Below are positions 22,647 through 63,565 of a stretch of 64,000 nt of DNA, one piece after another. Below the pieces are notes generated by a model. That model saw only the letters and a list, made by a program, of their open reading frames with translations. It was not told where the DNA came from and searched no databases. How positions within the stretch are numbered: the stretch's first letter is position 1; each line of letters starts with the position of its first letter. The stretch is from Terriglobales bacterium (lineage in GTDB: Bacteria; Acidobacteriota; Terriglobia; Terriglobales; Acidobacteriaceae), in assembly GCA_035651995.1 (NCBI GenBank), contig DASRER010000006.1, forward strand, positions 124,001 through 188,000, written 5' to 3'. The translations under genes and the position numbers were made by a program.

Positions 22647-24479
22647 TCAAAACGCCGACCCGCCGCCGCCGCCGAATCCGCCGCCGCTGAATCCTCCGCC
22701 CGAGCTGAATCCGCCGCCGCTGAATCCCGATCCGCTCGACGACGCCCTCGGCGCCGAGACGAACACGCTCTGCGCGTCGCTGCTCATGCTGCGCATCGAG
22801 TTGGTGAAGAAGATGGGGTTGAAGCCGGTGGGCGGCGCCCCGCCCGGCGACGTGTACCACCGTGGCGGATCCTGGATGATCCCGGCGAACGCCTTCGCCC
22901 AGCGCTGTTCCACGCCCAGCGCCATCGCGTAAGGCAGGAATTTTTCGAACGTGTCGGGCGGCATGCGCTTCAGCCGGTCGGCCTCCACGCGCGTCATGAA
23001 CTCCTGGAACCCGAGGACGCCCACGTACGTCCGCATTCCCAGCAGGCTCTTGGCCGTCAGCAGCCGTCCGAAGATCAGCACGATCCCCGCCGCCACCGCC
23101 AGCGAGACGAACGCCACCACTCCCGACACGAACAGCGACACCCCCGCCGCGTACTGCAGCAGCAGCGAAACCCCCACGATCGCCAGGATGCCCAGGAACA
23201 TGTAGCCCGCCGCCGATTTCGGGTCCACGGTGTACATGCCGCGCCGCTTCAGCGATCGCATGATCTCGTCGCGGATCATGGGCAGGGCCGTGTAGAAGTG
23301 CTCTTTCAGGTCCGACAGCTTGGTCTGCTGCCCGCCCGGGCCAAAAATCTTCTCCAGCATGATGCGCTCGTGCGCCGCCAGCTTCGGCCACTCTTCCATC
23401 GGCTTCAGCAGATGGAAGATGTAGTCCTTGTGTTTGGTGAAGAAGCCCTCGTTGGCGACCTCTTCAATCTGGAGGTAGCCGCGCACGGCCAGGTCGATCA
23501 GCGTTGACGTGATGTCGCGCGGGTCCACCTTGTCGTCCACCAGCGTGCCCAGCTCCGCCGGCGACAACTGCGCCGGCGGCTCATAGAGCGGCGCCACCGA
23601 AATCCCCGGATCGGGATCGCGCCCCTTCACGTACCACAGCCCGAACATCACCACGAACGCGACCAGCGGCACCAGCGCCACCGGATTGCTCGCCACGAAC
23701 CACCCGATGCGCACCGGAAGGGCCGGCTCATGCAGGATGCCCTTCGGGATGTACACATCAATCGTCAGCCCGCCGCGCATGGGGAGCGGGTTGGTCGTCT
23801 CGAACTCCGTCCTGCTGCCCTCCACCCTGGCGGTCGCTTCCTGGTCGTGCGATCCGTACACGCCGGTGAACGCCTGCGCGCGCAGGCTCCCCGCCGCGTT
23901 GTCGGGAAAAGTTACGAATGCCGACGCATGATCGATCGGCGCCGGCCAGTCGTTGCCGGTCACGTTCCAGTAGAACTCGTCGTGGTCGTCGAAGAAGCGC
24001 GTGCCATTGCGCACCGTGTAGGTGATCACCACGCGTTTGGACGTGTCGGTCGCCCCGGGAATGTAGATCTTCCAGTCGCGATATCCGCGCGCTGTGCTGC
24101 TCTCCACCTTCAGAGCGTGCCCCTCGCCGTCTTTCACGCCGACCAGGTCAACGAACAGCGTGTAGTTGGCGCCGCGCGGCCCGGGATACTCGATCGGAAT
24201 CGTGCGATGGATCCCGTGCCACTCGCCGATGAACACCAGCCCGATGTTCTCTTCCACCAGCGCGCTGCCATCGTCATGCACGCGGATGGCGGAGTGAAAC
24301 GCCGCGATGCGCCAGGACTTGGCTTGGGCAGGGAGCGTGGACAGGAGAAGAAGAAGCAGGAAGACGCCGAATGGCCTTGGTTTCAGGTTCCGGGCGAAGC
24401 GAGGGACCCATCCAGCTACCCAGCTCCTCAGTAGCGGTATGGGTCCCTCACTGCGCTCGGGATGTGAAAGGCGAACCAA
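22647..24479 (-). CDS. DUF2207 membrane protein (start uncertain)
   Basis: Up to 610 residues. A signal-like segment (GVFLLLLLLSTLPAQA) is followed by a periplasmic DUF2207 domain (IRVHDDGSALVEENIGLVF, GIHRTIPIEYPG, WKIYIPGATD, FYWNVTGNDWPAPI). Then come membrane helices (about 255-275 and 420-470), a cytoplasmic region (LVDDKVDPRDITSTLIDLA) and a Gly/Ser-rich C-terminus rich in SGGGF units. It is paired with lemA, as DUF2207 genes often are. The only standard start is TTG 24479, which forces translation through a palindromic repeat (24391-24461). CTG 24386, just before the signal segment, is an alternative. A repeat insertion may have moved the start. Confidence 0.85.
   Translation of the reverse strand: MVRLSHPERSEGPIPLLRSWVAGWVPRFARNLKPRPFGVFLLLLLLSTLPAQAKSWRIAAFHSAIRVHDDGSALVEENIGLVFIGEWHGIHRTIPIEYPGPRGANYTLFVDLVGVKDGEGHALKVESSTARGYRDWKIYIPGATDTSKRVVITYTVRNGTRFFDDHDEFYWNVTGNDWPAPIDHASAFVTFPDNAAGSLRAQAFTGVYGSHDQEATARVEGSRTEFETTNPLPMRGGLTIDVYIPKGILHEPALPVRIGWFVASNPVALVPLVAFVVMFGLWYVKGRDPDPGISVAPLYEPPAQLSPAELGTLVDDKVDPRDITSTLIDLAVRGYLQIEEVANEGFFTKHKDYIFHLLKPMEEWPKLAAHERIMLEKIFGPGGQQTKLSDLKEHFYTALPMIRDEIMRSLKRRGMYTVDPKSAAGYMFLGILAIVGVSLLLQYAAGVSLFVSGVVAFVSLAVAAGIVLIFGRLLTAKSLLGMRTYVGVLGFQEFMTRVEADRLKRMPPDTFEKFLPYAMALGVEQRWAKAFAGIIQDPPRWYTSPGGAPPTGFNPIFFTNSMRSMSSDAQSVFVSAPRASSSGSGFSGGGFSSGGGFSGGGFGGGGGSAF
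24391..24461. repeat. Hairpin repeat with CGAAGCGAGGGA core (gene-less form)
   Basis: The left arm 24391-24411 (GCGAAGCGAGGGACCCAT core) and right arm 24439-24461 (ATGGGTCCCTCACTGCGCTC) are inverted, with a 27-base centre. The core matches the terminal repeats of the GIY-YIG cassette at 61334-61701. Confidence 0.75.
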
Positions 24480-59940: not shown

Positions 59941-60042
59941 AGTGTCCAAGCTAGTGGATGGGTCATTCTGGGCCCGCGCCTCTTGCCGGCCCAGGACCTA
60001 TGCATTCCGCCCCTGCACGAACGGGTTGGAGATGGAATATTT

Positions 60043-60069
60043 CCGTGTCTCCGCGCCTCCGCGGTGAAT
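60043..60069. repeat. 9-base-unit repeat arm
   Basis: GTGTCTCCGCGCCTCCGCGGTGAA-type sequence, the single-arm form of the repeat at 53532-53611. Confidence 0.45.
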
Positions 60070-60076
60070 CGCTCTT

Positions 60077-60087
60077 CTGCTAAACTG
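60077..60087 (+). promoter_or_regulatory. Putative extended -10 of the thiolase gene
   Basis: CTGCTAAACTG, identical to 3158-3168 and 57828-57838, 43 bases before the thiolase start. Confidence 0.4.
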
Positions 60088-60130
60088 ACGTGTTTCCCCG
60101 CGCAAGCGGACTTCATCTGTAGGGTCTTCC

Positions 60131-61330
60131 ATGTTCCAGCCGCAGGACATCGCCATCGTCGCCGGGGCGCGCACGCCCATGGGCCGATACGGCGGCAAAC
60201 TGCGCGACTTCAGCGCGCAGGAACTCGGCGCGATCGCCGGCAAGTGCGCCATTCAGCGCGCCAACATCGAGCCCGCCGAGTTCGACCATGTGGTCTTCGG
60301 CAACGCGCAGCAGACGTCGGGCGACGCGCTCTACGGCGCCCGCCACGTCGCGCTCAAAGCCGGGTTGCCCATCGAAACGCCGGCGCTTACCGTGAACCGC
60401 CTGTGCGGCTCCGGCATGCAGGCCATTGTGAGCGGCGCGCAACTGATCCAGCTCGGCGAAGCAAAGACCGTGCTCGCCGGCGGCATGGAAAGCATGTCGC
60501 AGGCGCCGCACGTCATCCGCGGCGCGCGCTGGGGGCTGGGCCTGGGCGAAGGCAAGCTGGAAGACTCGCTGATGGTCGCGCTGCTCGACACCCAATGCGG
60601 CCTCTACATGGCCAACACCGCCGAGCTCTACGCCAGCCAGCACGGCATCACGCGCCAGCACATGGACGAGTTTGCGCTGCTCTCGCAGCAGCGCGCCGAC
60701 GCGGCTTACAAGGCCGGACGCATCCAGGAAGAACTCGTCCCCGTGCAGCTCGTCGATCGCAAAGGCCAGCCCACCGGCGAGTCGTTTTCCGAGGATGATC
60801 ACCGCCGCCCGCAAACCACGCTCGAAGGCCTTGCCAGGCTGAAGCCCGCGTTCGGCAAAGACGGCAGCGTCACCGCCGGCAACGCCAGCGGCATCGTGGA
60901 TGGCGGCGCCGCCGTCGTCCTCATGCCGCTCGAAAGCGCGCAGAAGCGTGGACTCAAGCCGCTCGGCCGCCTCGTCAGCTGGGGCATCGCCGGCGTCGAG
61001 CCGAAGATCATGGGCTCGGGCCCGGTGCCGGCCTCGAAGATCGCCCTGCAAAAAGCCGGGCTGAAGCTCGACGACATTGACCTGGTCGAAGTGAACGAAG
61101 CCTTCGCCGGCCAGTACCTCGCTGTCGAAAAGCAACTCGGCCTCGATCGCAACAAGACCAACGTGAACGGCGGCGCCATCGCGCTCGGCCATCCGTTGGG
61201 CGCGACCGGCACGCGGCTGGTGATTACGCTGCTGTACGAATTGCGCAGGCGTGGAAAGAAGTACGGACTCGCAACGGCGTGCATTGGCGGCGGGCAGGGA
61301 ATTGCAGTGATTGTGGAGGCTCTTTCTTAG
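60131..61330 (+). CDS. Acetyl-CoA C-acyltransferase (thiolase)
   Basis: 399 residues. It condenses two acetyl-CoA to acetoacetyl-CoA or splits 3-ketoacyl-CoA. The first Cys is in VNRLCGSGMQAIVSG (about Cys92), the His in GGAIALGHPLGATGTRLV, and the second Cys in ATACIGGGQGIAVIVE. GARTPMGRYGGKL and EVNEAFAGQYLAVEKQL also fit. A 3-hydroxybutyryl-CoA dehydrogenase and an enoyl-CoA hydratase follow on the same strand, making a C4 acyl-CoA pathway group. A GIY-YIG cassette separates the thiolase from the rest. Confidence 0.96.
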   Translation: MFQPQDIAIVAGARTPMGRYGGKLRDFSAQELGAIAGKCAIQRANIEPAEFDHVVFGNAQQTSGDALYGARHVALKAGLPIETPALTVNRLCGSGMQAIVSGAQLIQLGEAKTVLAGGMESMSQAPHVIRGARWGLGLGEGKLEDSLMVALLDTQCGLYMANTAELYASQHGITRQHMDEFALLSQQRADAAYKAGRIQEELVPVQLVDRKGQPTGESFSEDDHRRPQTTLEGLARLKPAFGKDGSVTAGNASGIVDGGAAVVLMPLESAQKRGLKPLGRLVSWGIAGVEPKIMGSGPVPASKIALQKAGLKLDDIDLVEVNEAFAGQYLAVEKQLGLDRNKTNVNGGAIALGHPLGATGTRLVITLLYELRRRGKKYGLATACIGGGQGIAVIVEALS

Positions 61331-61333
61331 ATT

Positions 61334-61701
61334 ATCCCGAGCGAAGCGAGGGAACCATACCTTGCCACGACCGATTGCGAAGGGCAGGCTGTTCTACTAC
61401 GTCTACATTCTCGCTAGTCTCTCAGGGATGTTGTACGTCGGCCTCACCGACCATTTGCCGCGCCGTTTGCGCGAGCATAAAGACGGCGTGTTCGACGGGT
61501 TTACAAAGCGGTACAAGATCAATCGCTTGATGTGCTTCGAAAAGATGACTGATTCATATGCGGCGCGACGCCGTGAAATTCAGATCAAGGCATACCGTCG
61601 CGAGAAGAAAATCGCGTTATTTGTGGGCACGAATCCGTCATGGCGTGATCTTTCGCCCGAAGTGTTTGCTTGGGGTATAGGTCCCTCGCTTCGCTCGGGA
61701 T
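61334..61701. mobile_element. Putative GIY-YIG cassette with 28-bp terminal inverted repeats
   Basis: The left repeat 61334-61361 and right repeat 61674-61701 are inverted copies differing at 2 of 28 positions; the shared core is CGAGCGAAGCGAGGGA. The match continues outward as TCTTAGAT (61325-61332 and 61700-61707) with a 3-base indel. The 368-bp unit holds almost nothing except one small nuclease gene. It is inserted between the thiolase stop and the dehydrogenase start, and the gene-less relative at 24391-24461 shares the core. No transposase is present, so movement by the nuclease or by a host enzyme is a hypothesis. Confidence 0.65.
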
Positions 61702-61727
61702 CTAAGAGCAAAGCAAAGCCGCGGTAA
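61362..61727 (+). CDS. Solitary GIY-YIG endonuclease-domain protein
   Basis: 121 residues from TTG 61362, the first codon after the left inverted repeat. One GIY-YIG domain covers most of it: FYYVYILASLSGMLYVGLTD (the two Tyr strands), RRLREHKDG (catalytic Arg), KRYKINRLMCFEK, then AARRREIQIKAYRREKK (catalytic Glu) and GTNPSWRDLSP (Asn/Trp). The key residues are all kept, so it may be active. The last 15 or so residues (GIGPSLRSGSKSK) are encoded by the right inverted repeat. It has no DNA-binding domain beyond the nuclease, unlike homing enzymes. Confidence 0.85.
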   Translation: MPRPIAKGRLFYYVYILASLSGMLYVGLTDHLPRRLREHKDGVFDGFTKRYKINRLMCFEKMTDSYAARRREIQIKAYRREKKIALFVGTNPSWRDLSPEVFAWGIGPSLRSGSKSKAKPR

Positions 61728-61742
61728 GAGGTTTTGATCTCT

Positions 61743-62633
61743 ATGGCAATTCAAAAGGTCGGCGTACTCGGCTGCGGTCTCATGGGCTCCGGCATCGCCC
61801 AGGTCGCAGCCACTGCGGGTTGCGACGTCACCGTGCTCGAGGCCGAGCAGCGCTTTCTCGACAAAGGCTTCGCCGGCATCGAGAGGTCGCTCGCGAAGTT
61901 GGCCGAGAAGCCCGACAAGAGCGGCATCACGCCCGAAAAGGCGAAAGAAATCCGCGCTCGTCTGCAGGGTACCACCGACAAGAGCGGCCTCGCCGACTGT
62001 GACATCGTCATTGAAGCCATCATCGAGAACGTTGAAGAAAAGAAGAAGATGCACTCGGCGCTGGACTCCATCGTGAAGCGCGATGCCATCTTCGCCTCCA
62101 ATACCTCGTCCATCTCCATCACCGAGCTGATGACGGCGACCAAGCGCCCCGAGCGCTTCATCGGCCTGCACTTCTTCAACCCCGTGCCGCTCATGAAGCT
62201 GGTCGAGGTCGTGCGTACCATCGCTACCGATCCGGCGGTCCTCGACACCGCCGTCGAGTTCGGCAAAAGGCTGGGCAAAGTTCCGGTGCGCACCTCGGAC
62301 AAAACGGGATTCATCGTGAACCGCCTGCTGGTGCCCTACCTGCTCGACGCCATCCGCGCCTACGAAGAGGGCGTGGGTTCGATCCCCGACATCGACAACG
62401 CCATGAAGCTCGGCTGCGGATATCCGATGGGCCCGTTCACGCTGCTCGACTTCGTCGGCCTCGACACCACGTACTACATCACCCACGTGATGTACGACGA
62501 GTTCAAGGAGCGCCGCTTCGCCTCGCCGCCGCTGCTCAAACGCCTGGTGCTGGCCGGCTGGTACGGGAAGAAAACGGGCAAAGGGTTTTACGACTGGTCG
62601 GACCCGCAGAACCCGGTGCCGGGGGAGTTTTGA
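61743..62633 (+). CDS. 3-hydroxybutyryl-CoA dehydrogenase (second copy)
   Basis: 296 residues from ATG 61743, with AAGAGG 11 bases upstream. NAD site [50 protein letters not shown] with the catalytic His; C-terminal GCGYPMGPFTLLDFVGLDTT and TGKGFYDWSDP. It shares the fold and catalytic residues with the copy at 3189 but differs widely elsewhere, for example in the N-terminal domain. It oxidises or reduces acetoacetyl-CoA in the same group as the thiolase and crotonase genes. Direction (degradation or synthesis) is open. Confidence 0.95.
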   Translation: MAIQKVGVLGCGLMGSGIAQVAATAGCDVTVLEAEQRFLDKGFAGIERSLAKLAEKPDKSGITPEKAKEIRARLQGTTDKSGLADCDIVIEAIIENVEEKKKMHSALDSIVKRDAIFASNTSSISITELMTATKRPERFIGLHFFNPVPLMKLVEVVRTIATDPAVLDTAVEFGKRLGKVPVRTSDKTGFIVNRLLVPYLLDAIRAYEEGVGSIPDIDNAMKLGCGYPMGPFTLLDFVGLDTTYYITHVMYDEFKERRFASPPLLKRLVLAGWYGKKTGKGFYDWSDPQNPVPGEF

Positions 62634-62644
62634 GGTTTTTGTCG

Positions 62645-62764
62645 AACCGCGGAGGCGCGGAGCCGGGGAGAAGTGAGGATTCGGGGAAATCAGAACAGAA
62701 TTCTCCGCGTCAGTCCGCGGTACGGTTTTTGGTTGTGGTCGGTGTAGTCCGTGTTCATCCGTGG
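62645..62764. repeat. Mixed 8/9-base-unit repeat arms
   Basis: Left AACCGCGGAGGCGCGGAG (62645-62662). Right CTCCGCGTCAGTCCGCGG (62704-62721), which is inverted, then GTAGTCCGTGTTCATCCGTG (62744-62763), a tail common in bacterial intergenic repeats. It lies between the dehydrogenase and hydratase genes. Confidence 0.5.
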
Positions 62765-62782
62765 TAAGCAGGCTTGGCGCTT

Positions 62783-63565
62783 ATGACCTTTGAAAACATC
62801 ATTTTCGAGAAAAAAGGGCCCATCGCCACGGTCACCGTCAACCGACCGAAGGTCCTCAACGCCCTGAACGCGGCGACGATGGAAGACCTGCGGCAGGCCT
62901 TCAGCGACATTCAAGAAGATGCGGCCATACGCGTCGGCCTGCTCACCGGCGCGGGCGAGAAGGCCTTCATCGCCGGCGCCGACATCGGCGAACTGGCCAA
63001 GCAGGATCCGGTTTCCGCCAAGGAGTACACGCATCGCGGCCAGGCCGTGCTCGACCTGATCGAGAACCTGGGCAAGCCGGTCATCGCCTGCATCAACGGT
63101 TTCGCCCTCGGGGGCGGATGCGAGATCGCCATGGCCTGCAGCTTTCGTCTGGCCAGTGAGAATGCGAAGCTGGGTCAGCCCGAAGTCAAGCTCGGCATCA
63201 TTCCTGGGTACGGCGGCACGCAACGCCTGCCGCGCCTGGTTGGCAAGGGCCTGGCGAACCAGATCCTGCTTTCCGGCGACATGATCACCGCCCAGGAAGC
63301 GCACCGCATCGGCCTGGTGAATGAAGTCACGGCGCCCGCCGAGTTGATCCCGCGCGCCGAAGCCATCGCGCAGAAGATCATCGCCAATGCGCCGCTCGCC
63401 GTGCAGTACACGCTTGAAGCCGTGAACCACGGCATGGAGATGCCACTTTCAGAAGGGCTCTACCTGGAAGCAACACTCTTCGCGGTCGCCTGCGCCACCG
63501 AGGACAAGAAAGAAGGCACCAGCGCATTCCTGGAAAAGCGCCCGGCACAGTTCAAGGGGAAGTGA
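62783..63565 (+). CDS. Enoyl-CoA hydratase/isomerase (crotonase)
   Basis: 260 residues from ATG 62783; a TTG nine bases earlier is an alternative. It hydrates 2-enoyl-CoA, for instance crotonyl-CoA. IATVTVNRPKVLNALNAATM starts it, the oxyanion hole is in AFIAGADIGELAK, and NGFALGGGCEIAMACSFRLA holds the CoA region. GQPEVKLGIIPGYGGTQRLPRLVG has both catalytic Glu residues (EVKLGI and the related positions). It ends TEDKKEGTSAFLEKRPAQFK, as typical for crotonases. It completes the thiolase/dehydrogenase/hydratase set. Confidence 0.96.
   Translation: MTFENIIFEKKGPIATVTVNRPKVLNALNAATMEDLRQAFSDIQEDAAIRVGLLTGAGEKAFIAGADIGELAKQDPVSAKEYTHRGQAVLDLIENLGKPVIACINGFALGGGCEIAMACSFRLASENAKLGQPEVKLGIIPGYGGTQRLPRLVGKGLANQILLSGDMITAQEAHRIGLVNEVTAPAELIPRAEAIAQKIIANAPLAVQYTLEAVNHGMEMPLSEGLYLEATLFAVACATEDKKEGTSAFLEKRPAQFKGK

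Follow-up and report, generated by a model that had tools for sequence, protein, structure and literature searches.

The 64,000-nucleotide stretch of Terriglobales DNA analysed here (the window) raises the question of why a solitary gene for a GIY-YIG nuclease, enclosed in inverted repeats (61334-61701), lies between a thiolase gene and a 3-hydroxyacyl-CoA dehydrogenase (HBD-like) gene, and whether this arrangement is a mobile element. The unit was interpreted as probably being a minimal mobile element composed of an inverted repetitive extragenic palindrome (REP), the solitary nuclease gene and a second REP, of which gene-free pairs of inverted REPs (REPINs) would be non-autonomous derivatives. 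The original prediction had proposed a repeat-plus-nuclease cassette, perhaps a GIY-YIG counterpart of the RAYT/REP system; empty sites in relatives and an excess of inverted repeats around such genes support this proposal, in which catalysis and transposition by the nuclease are inferred.

The left REP arm (ATCCCGAGCGAAGCGAGGGAACCATACC, 61334-61361, forward strand) contains a hairpin core of 17 nt (61336-61352) as well as CCATACC, a tail specific to the lineage, and the right REP arm (61674-61701, core 61683-61699, reverse strand) is its inverted copy, with 26 of 28 positions identical (93%) and a spacing of 312 nt. On direct reading of the sequence, the inverted repeat extends imperfectly outwards, CTTAGAT (61326-61332, forward strand) being matched by ATCTAAG (61700-61706, reverse strand). 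The repeat is more than an arm, each copy being able to fold as a hairpin (ATCCC-GA-GC-GAA-GC-GA-GGG(A)). The nuclease open reading frame (ORF; 61362-61727, forward strand) has an uncertain start: the TTG at 61362 abuts the left arm, whose GAGGGA would lie at Shine-Dalgarno distance from it, and an alternative in-frame TTG at 61311 is located within the thiolase gene. The near-perfect inverted ends around a lone GIY-YIG gene, as first described, were confirmed by comparison of the arms and by the sole Pfam match of the gene (PF01541, GIY-YIG, E 4.9e-10). The boundaries of the two genes were corrected: the nuclease ORF, thought to end in the right repeat, continues across that arm to a stop codon at 61725-61727, about 26 bp past it, and the thiolase stop codon (61328-61330), assigned to the left repeat, is 3 bp outside the 28-bp arm and falls within the imperfect outward extension. 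No Rfam family was matched within 60000-63400, and no PHROGs or NCBIfam family was matched.

The Tyr, Gly, Arg, Glu and Asn positions were invariant in an alignment of 25 relatives, in agreement with the earlier claim that the catalytic Tyr, Arg, Glu and Asn are kept. AlphaFold2 modelled the GIY-YIG core with confidence and predicted the REP-encoded C-terminus (about 15 residues) to be disordered; the closest solved structures were UPF0213 BH0048 (1zg2) and Slx1-Slx4, a nuclease acting on branched DNA. By its fold and its catalytic Tyr, Arg and Glu (and Asn), the protein belongs to the Slx1-like / UPF0213 GIY-YIG group, and it carries PF01541 instead of the HUH-type Y1 transposase domain (PF01797).

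Relatives of the nuclease were found in 34 of 61 related genomes. Inverted repeats around solitary GIY-YIG genes were scanned with a score threshold of 12 or more, using as controls random intervals or ORFs from the same loci. Of 43 genes tested, 35 were spanned by an inverted repeat, as were 21 of 2580 random intervals, in a scan that missed the window's own unit (the protein match overlapped the right arm). Among named loci from many phyla chosen by protein similarity alone (n=79), 43 of 76 were bracketed, compared with 31 of 2370 controls; a looser combined criterion gave 53 of 76, and 20 of 28 outside Acidobacteriota, where positives include Deltaproteobacteria, Bacteroidales, Nitrospirae, Chloroflexi, Patescibacteria, Ignavibacteria, Treponema, Armatimonadota, Kapaibacteria and Rhodocyclaceae. 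With the ORF-based control, 78 of 118 solitary GIY-YIG genes lay within inverted repeats, against 13 of 949 other ORFs and 4 of 368 small ORFs, so that such genes elsewhere are also flanked by inverted repeats far above background, in line with the original prediction. The gene-plus-repeat arrangement thus occurs in more than 10 bacterial phyla, and the physical association of GIY-YIG genes with REPs is near certain. Among individual loci, plasmid p1 of Planktothrix agardhii carries a REP-flanked GIY-YIG unit that has MmeI, a type IIL restriction gene, on one side and drmA of the DISARM system on the other (L221:1675-2600). Some plasmid-collection records of 2-5 Mb (L217, L218 and L225; N. gonorrhoeae, S. 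meliloti and A. caviae) look like misfiled chromosomes.

Most of the repeats around solitary GIY-YIG genes are CGTC-tagged REPs. Their commonest form is (C/T)GTC-AT-stem-loop-stem-AT-C with tags pointing outward, and CGTC hairpins in this orientation on both sides were found for 11/43, 26/79 and 8/20 genes, as compared with 1/860, 0/1580 and 8/400 control windows, respectively. Flanking copies are of the dRS3 type in N. gonorrhoeae, CGTCATCCCCGCGAAGGCGGGGATC in A. lipoferum, and CGTCATCC(T/C)...GGATC in Shinella, Neorhizobium and Rhizobium; CGTC dimers numbered 71 among all loci. Stem covariation was examined by fixing only the outer and inner anchors: 176 of 198 REPs had complementary stem triplets, drawn from 8 pair types, against a mean of 42 (maximum 59) after shuffling, and the hairpin stem is therefore real. 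In the window the repeat likewise starts its stem with AT and forms a hairpin with a short loop (AT-CCC-GA-GC-GAA-GC-GA-GGG). The loop of the acidobacterial form, GCGNAGC, is a known DNA mini-hairpin of unusual stability. The CGTC-tagged superfamily was defined by Di Nocera, De Gregorio and Rocco in 2013 (PMC3733652), with a dedicated transposase "apparently" lacking.

The window's own genome (3.66 Mb) contains 31 copies of the 17-nt core CCCGAGCGAAGCGAGGG at no more than 2 mismatches, compared with 2 for the reversed control, which places the repeat far from chance. Several of these copies are arranged as inverted pairs, at a distance of about 55-70 bp, that share their outer and inner ends with the unit; they include a gene-free, REPIN- or MITE-like (miniature inverted-repeat transposable element) pair at 24389-24461 whose tail (CCCATCC / CCCATACC) is common to the unit. 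The tail GAGGGANCCATAC (CCATAC with GAGGGAN) recurs exactly 9 times in this genome and 0-1 times in other genomes among the matches listed. Because ends and tail are common to both, the unit and the gene-free pairs constitute one lineage-specific family. These pairs, two inverted REPs with a short spacer, dispersed in the genome, are REPINs, and the family, like the CGTC superfamily, occurs in many copies with head-to-head dimers among them. The CGTC tag itself is present in many relatives' units and in other repeats of the same genome, e.g. TTGTCATCCCGAGCG; no GTAG tag, the mark of RAYT genes and REPtrons, was found at the arms. Elsewhere in this genome, two more solitary GIY-YIG genes lie in tandem, interleaved with a second REP family, CGTCATGCTGAGCGGAGG...TCGAAGCATCCCTACCTGACCCG (C20:128266-129250; L068:9767-10750). 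A RAYT gene is also present (C20:12864-13205; L035:1100-2060) with REPs of its own (CCCACAGCGTAAGCTGTGGG, GCTGGCGAAGCCAGC and CTCGCGAAGCGAG), and two REP/nuclease systems therefore coexist in one genome.

The extent of the mobile unit was deduced from within-genome sister genes located at different loci, of which the gene tree yielded three pairs (in G030, G055 and G026). In the clearest pair (G030), homology begins just outside the left tag and reaches the right tag; it runs from the left tag to inside the right REP in G026, and from inside the left REP to just past the right tag in G055. Past the REPs of the three pairs no homology was found except unrelated repeats, and since the homology of sister copies is confined between the two REPs, the mobile unit is REP-gene-REP. 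The genome G026 also contains two near-identical GIY-YIG units in direct tandem, with long common blocks that include the REPs (G026:C11; L069:9380-10730).

Insertion sites were recognised by comparison with relatives lacking the unit. In Azospirillum lipoferum 4B (L222:1857-2475) a unit lies between sufB and sufC, breaking an otherwise tight operon spacing. In three relatives at 95-96% identity (A. oryzae, A. ramasamyi and Azospirillum sp. B510), a short spacer is all that separates sufB from sufC, and no unit is present; within 50 kb around the A. lipoferum unit, the sole CGTC REPs are its own. In the acidobacterial genus g34 one site is occupied in G033 and G156 and empty in G201, G213 and G087. 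No REP is present at the empty sites of Azospirillum and genus g34, nor at those of most relatives with adjacent thiolase and HBD genes. No clear excess of direct repeats was detected at the ends of 47 units and 71 dimers, and a target duplication of the type made by classical insertion sequences or MITEs (DDE) is accordingly rejected for them. In G021 and G007 (L198:3105-3275 and L203:2944-3075), a second copy of about the first 17 HBD codons stands upstream of the HBD gene, beside a REP, which is possibly the trace of a REP insertion with a long target duplication.

In the window the unit is bordered by the thiolase gene on the left (60131-61330, forward strand) and by the HBD-like gene on the right (61743-62633, forward strand), and the adjacency of these two genes, which reveals the empty site, is kept in 26 relatives. 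The search for an empty site proposed with the original prediction was positive: the nuclease gene is absent from 25 of the 26, and the remaining one (G022, from another genus) has a decayed copy at the same site, which is the sister of the window gene in the tree (support 100/96). Other REPs and one REPIN occupy the thiolase-HBD spacer in some relatives. The decayed orthologue at the same site indicates that the insertion is old, with loss or decay elsewhere, and rules out a recent insertion of the window copy. The window copy is thus an old member of its lineage, fixed between two genes of one pathway.

The link between the nuclease and repeat number was studied in 141 genomes of the class, in which the repeat was defined as CATYCYGAGCGNAGYG with a threshold of 5 or more copies and the nuclease as a strong match. 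At least 5 repeats were present in 42 of the 45 nuclease-positive genomes, compared with 28 of the 96 without nuclease (p = 0.0002 when labels were permuted within taxonomic families only), and the 54 genomes from families without a strong nuclease match had a maximum of 1 copy per genome.

Direct support is thus available for the association itself, for a unit extending from tag to tag, for hairpin covariation, for empty sites, for dispersal within genomes and for independence from RAYT. On this basis the GIY-YIG nuclease probably plays a role in REP mobilisation, and it is the best candidate for the enzyme that spreads the CGTC REP superfamily. The proposed mechanism starts from the REP as a short hairpin with an outer pyrimidine-GTC tag, an AT stem start, a GNA-type or longer loop and a short tail. 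This hairpin, which is probably single-stranded or else extruded on the lagging strand, would be recognised by the Slx1-like nuclease and nicked at the tag or close to it. The REP-bounded segment would afterwards be copied or re-inserted at another place by the replication and repair functions of the host, without target duplication, and gene-free REP pairs would be mobilised in trans. The nuclease would have the same role for CGTC REPs as RAYT, an HUH enzyme, has for GTAG REPs, but would act by hydrolysis and with no covalent intermediate.

Several observations weigh against this interpretation. The GIY-YIG enzymes described in the literature cleave DNA by hydrolysis without joining it, so that integration would need host functions. 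About one third of the solitary GIY-YIG genes have no inverted repeat by the tests used, which may reflect decay, other repeat types or the fact that not all are mobile. The outer tags of the window's own arms have diverged to GATT and TTAG (the subfamily in its genome is ~TTAC), so that they carry no strict CGTC, TGTC or CCTC tag, although it is clear from the context to which family they belong. An earlier test on 37 genomes gave no significant difference within family f1 alone (the larger set being significant), and repeats do not differ by nuclease in the small family f8. Some genomes have many repeats and no detected nuclease (e.g. G031, 55; G106, 46; G164, 74); in such genomes the enzyme may have been lost, gone undetected or not be needed, and although loss of the enzyme would produce this pattern, there is room for other causes.

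The best surviving alternative is homing, in which REPs would be cleaved by a freestanding GIY-YIG homing endonuclease, and gene conversion would carry its gene into REPs or REPINs already present, without any spread of REPs to new places. GIY-YIG homing enzymes are known, and in A. lipoferum and Shinella there are units with a complete REPIN next to them, on one side or on both, but the mostly REP-free empty sites are weak evidence against homing into REPs and disfavour it as the sole mode, and repeat abundance tracks the nuclease across the 141 genomes; homing is considered improbable.

Less likely still, and quite doubtful in our judgement, is that RAYT (HUH Y1) enzymes mobilise these repeats in trans, the GIY-YIG gene being a passenger caught between two REPs. 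Y1_Tnp genes are indeed common (49 of 61 genomes), but the RAYT genes carry another, GTAG-type REP: of the 20 examined in these genomes, 18 lie within inverted repeats, for the most part TAGCCCAG...CTGGG, and 0 of 20 are flanked by CGTC hairpins; Di Nocera 2013 (PMC3733652) also found no RAYT with CGTC REP flanks. Genomes without any Y1_Tnp gene still carry abundant repeats (83 in G016, 55 in G018, 104 in G033 and 9 in G034), and the presence of Y1_Tnp does not predict repeats (27/49 vs 4/12, p 0.21), though the counts correlate weakly. Given the separate REP types and the repeat-rich genomes free of Y1_Tnp, RAYT in trans is rejected as the main cause of repeat spread; moreover, a passenger caught at random would not be one and the same gene across more than 10 phyla.

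That the repeats are terminators or regulatory hairpins gathering beside horizontally acquired small genes, the nuclease having no part in their movement, is very hard to credit, for although REP hairpins can act in RNA and REPs are often downstream of genes (Di Nocera 2013, PMC3733652), small ORFs of the same loci are so rarely bracketed that the ORF-based control rules out terminators or random accumulation, the tags point outward on both sides, sister copies have the gene and both REPs in common as one block, and the A. lipoferum unit has the only CGTC REPs in its 50 kb.

The REP-nuclease-REP unit is accordingly preferred as a mobile element in its own right. A broader interpretation, favoured with somewhat less confidence, is that such units represent an undescribed class of bacterial mobile elements whose only protein would be a Slx1-like GIY-YIG nuclease that attacks REP hairpins by hydrolysis. 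This class, with an evolution independent of RAYT/HUH, would provide the missing enzyme and the origin of the CGTC superfamily (including dRS3, RPE-4/6 and the TGTCATYCYGAGCG repeats of acidobacteria and Bacteroidetes). A search of the open-access literature, with subscription papers and preprints outside its reach, found no paper linking GIY-YIG with REPs, REPINs, dRS3 or RAYT in this way. CGTC REPs, one of the two large REP superfamilies, have been without a candidate enzyme since their definition in 2013, and the nuclease is now a candidate. If this is true, it would explain how a group of repeats arose that shapes many genomes and clutters their annotation, and REP-type mobile elements would have arisen at least twice, with unrelated nuclease chemistries. 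The prediction is hairpin cleavage near the CGTC tag, and an enzyme of 95 residues and a hairpin of 25 nt are enough to put the question to a direct test.

Comparison with known systems places the nuclease nearest to the Slx1-like / UPF0213 proteins (E. coli YhbQ, 1zg2), which are single-domain GIY-YIG proteins like that of the window and match it in fold and sequence; the housekeeping relative yhbQ of E. coli has no such repeats flanking it, whereas the REP-bounded genes described here are dispersed and multi-copy. GIY-YIG homing endonucleases (I-TevI, T4 Seg) and Penelope-like retroelements are likewise GIY-YIG nucleases in selfish DNA, but the units analysed here have no intron, DNA-binding module or reverse transcriptase, and end in REPs. 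The repeats share with the CGTC superfamily of PMC3733652 (including Neisseria dRS3 and Rickettsia RPE-4/RPE-6) the CGTC/TGTC tag, the AT stem start, the short loop, the short tail and the head-to-head dimers, and extend beyond it by the acidobacterial GAGC-GNA-GCGA form with tandem GA, by long-loop forms and by the drifted tag of the window unit. As in the REPtrons formed by GTAG REPs/REPINs and RAYT (TnpA-REP), a single chromosomal nuclease gene is bracketed by inverted REPs, inverted REP pairs are dispersed, a hairpin is combined with a short conserved tag, and no target duplication was found here. The GIY-YIG units differ from RAYT in their enzyme (hydrolytic GIY-YIG instead of HUH/Tyr) and in their tag (CGTC/TGTC instead of GTAG), and the two systems coexist in the same genomes, each with its separate repeats.
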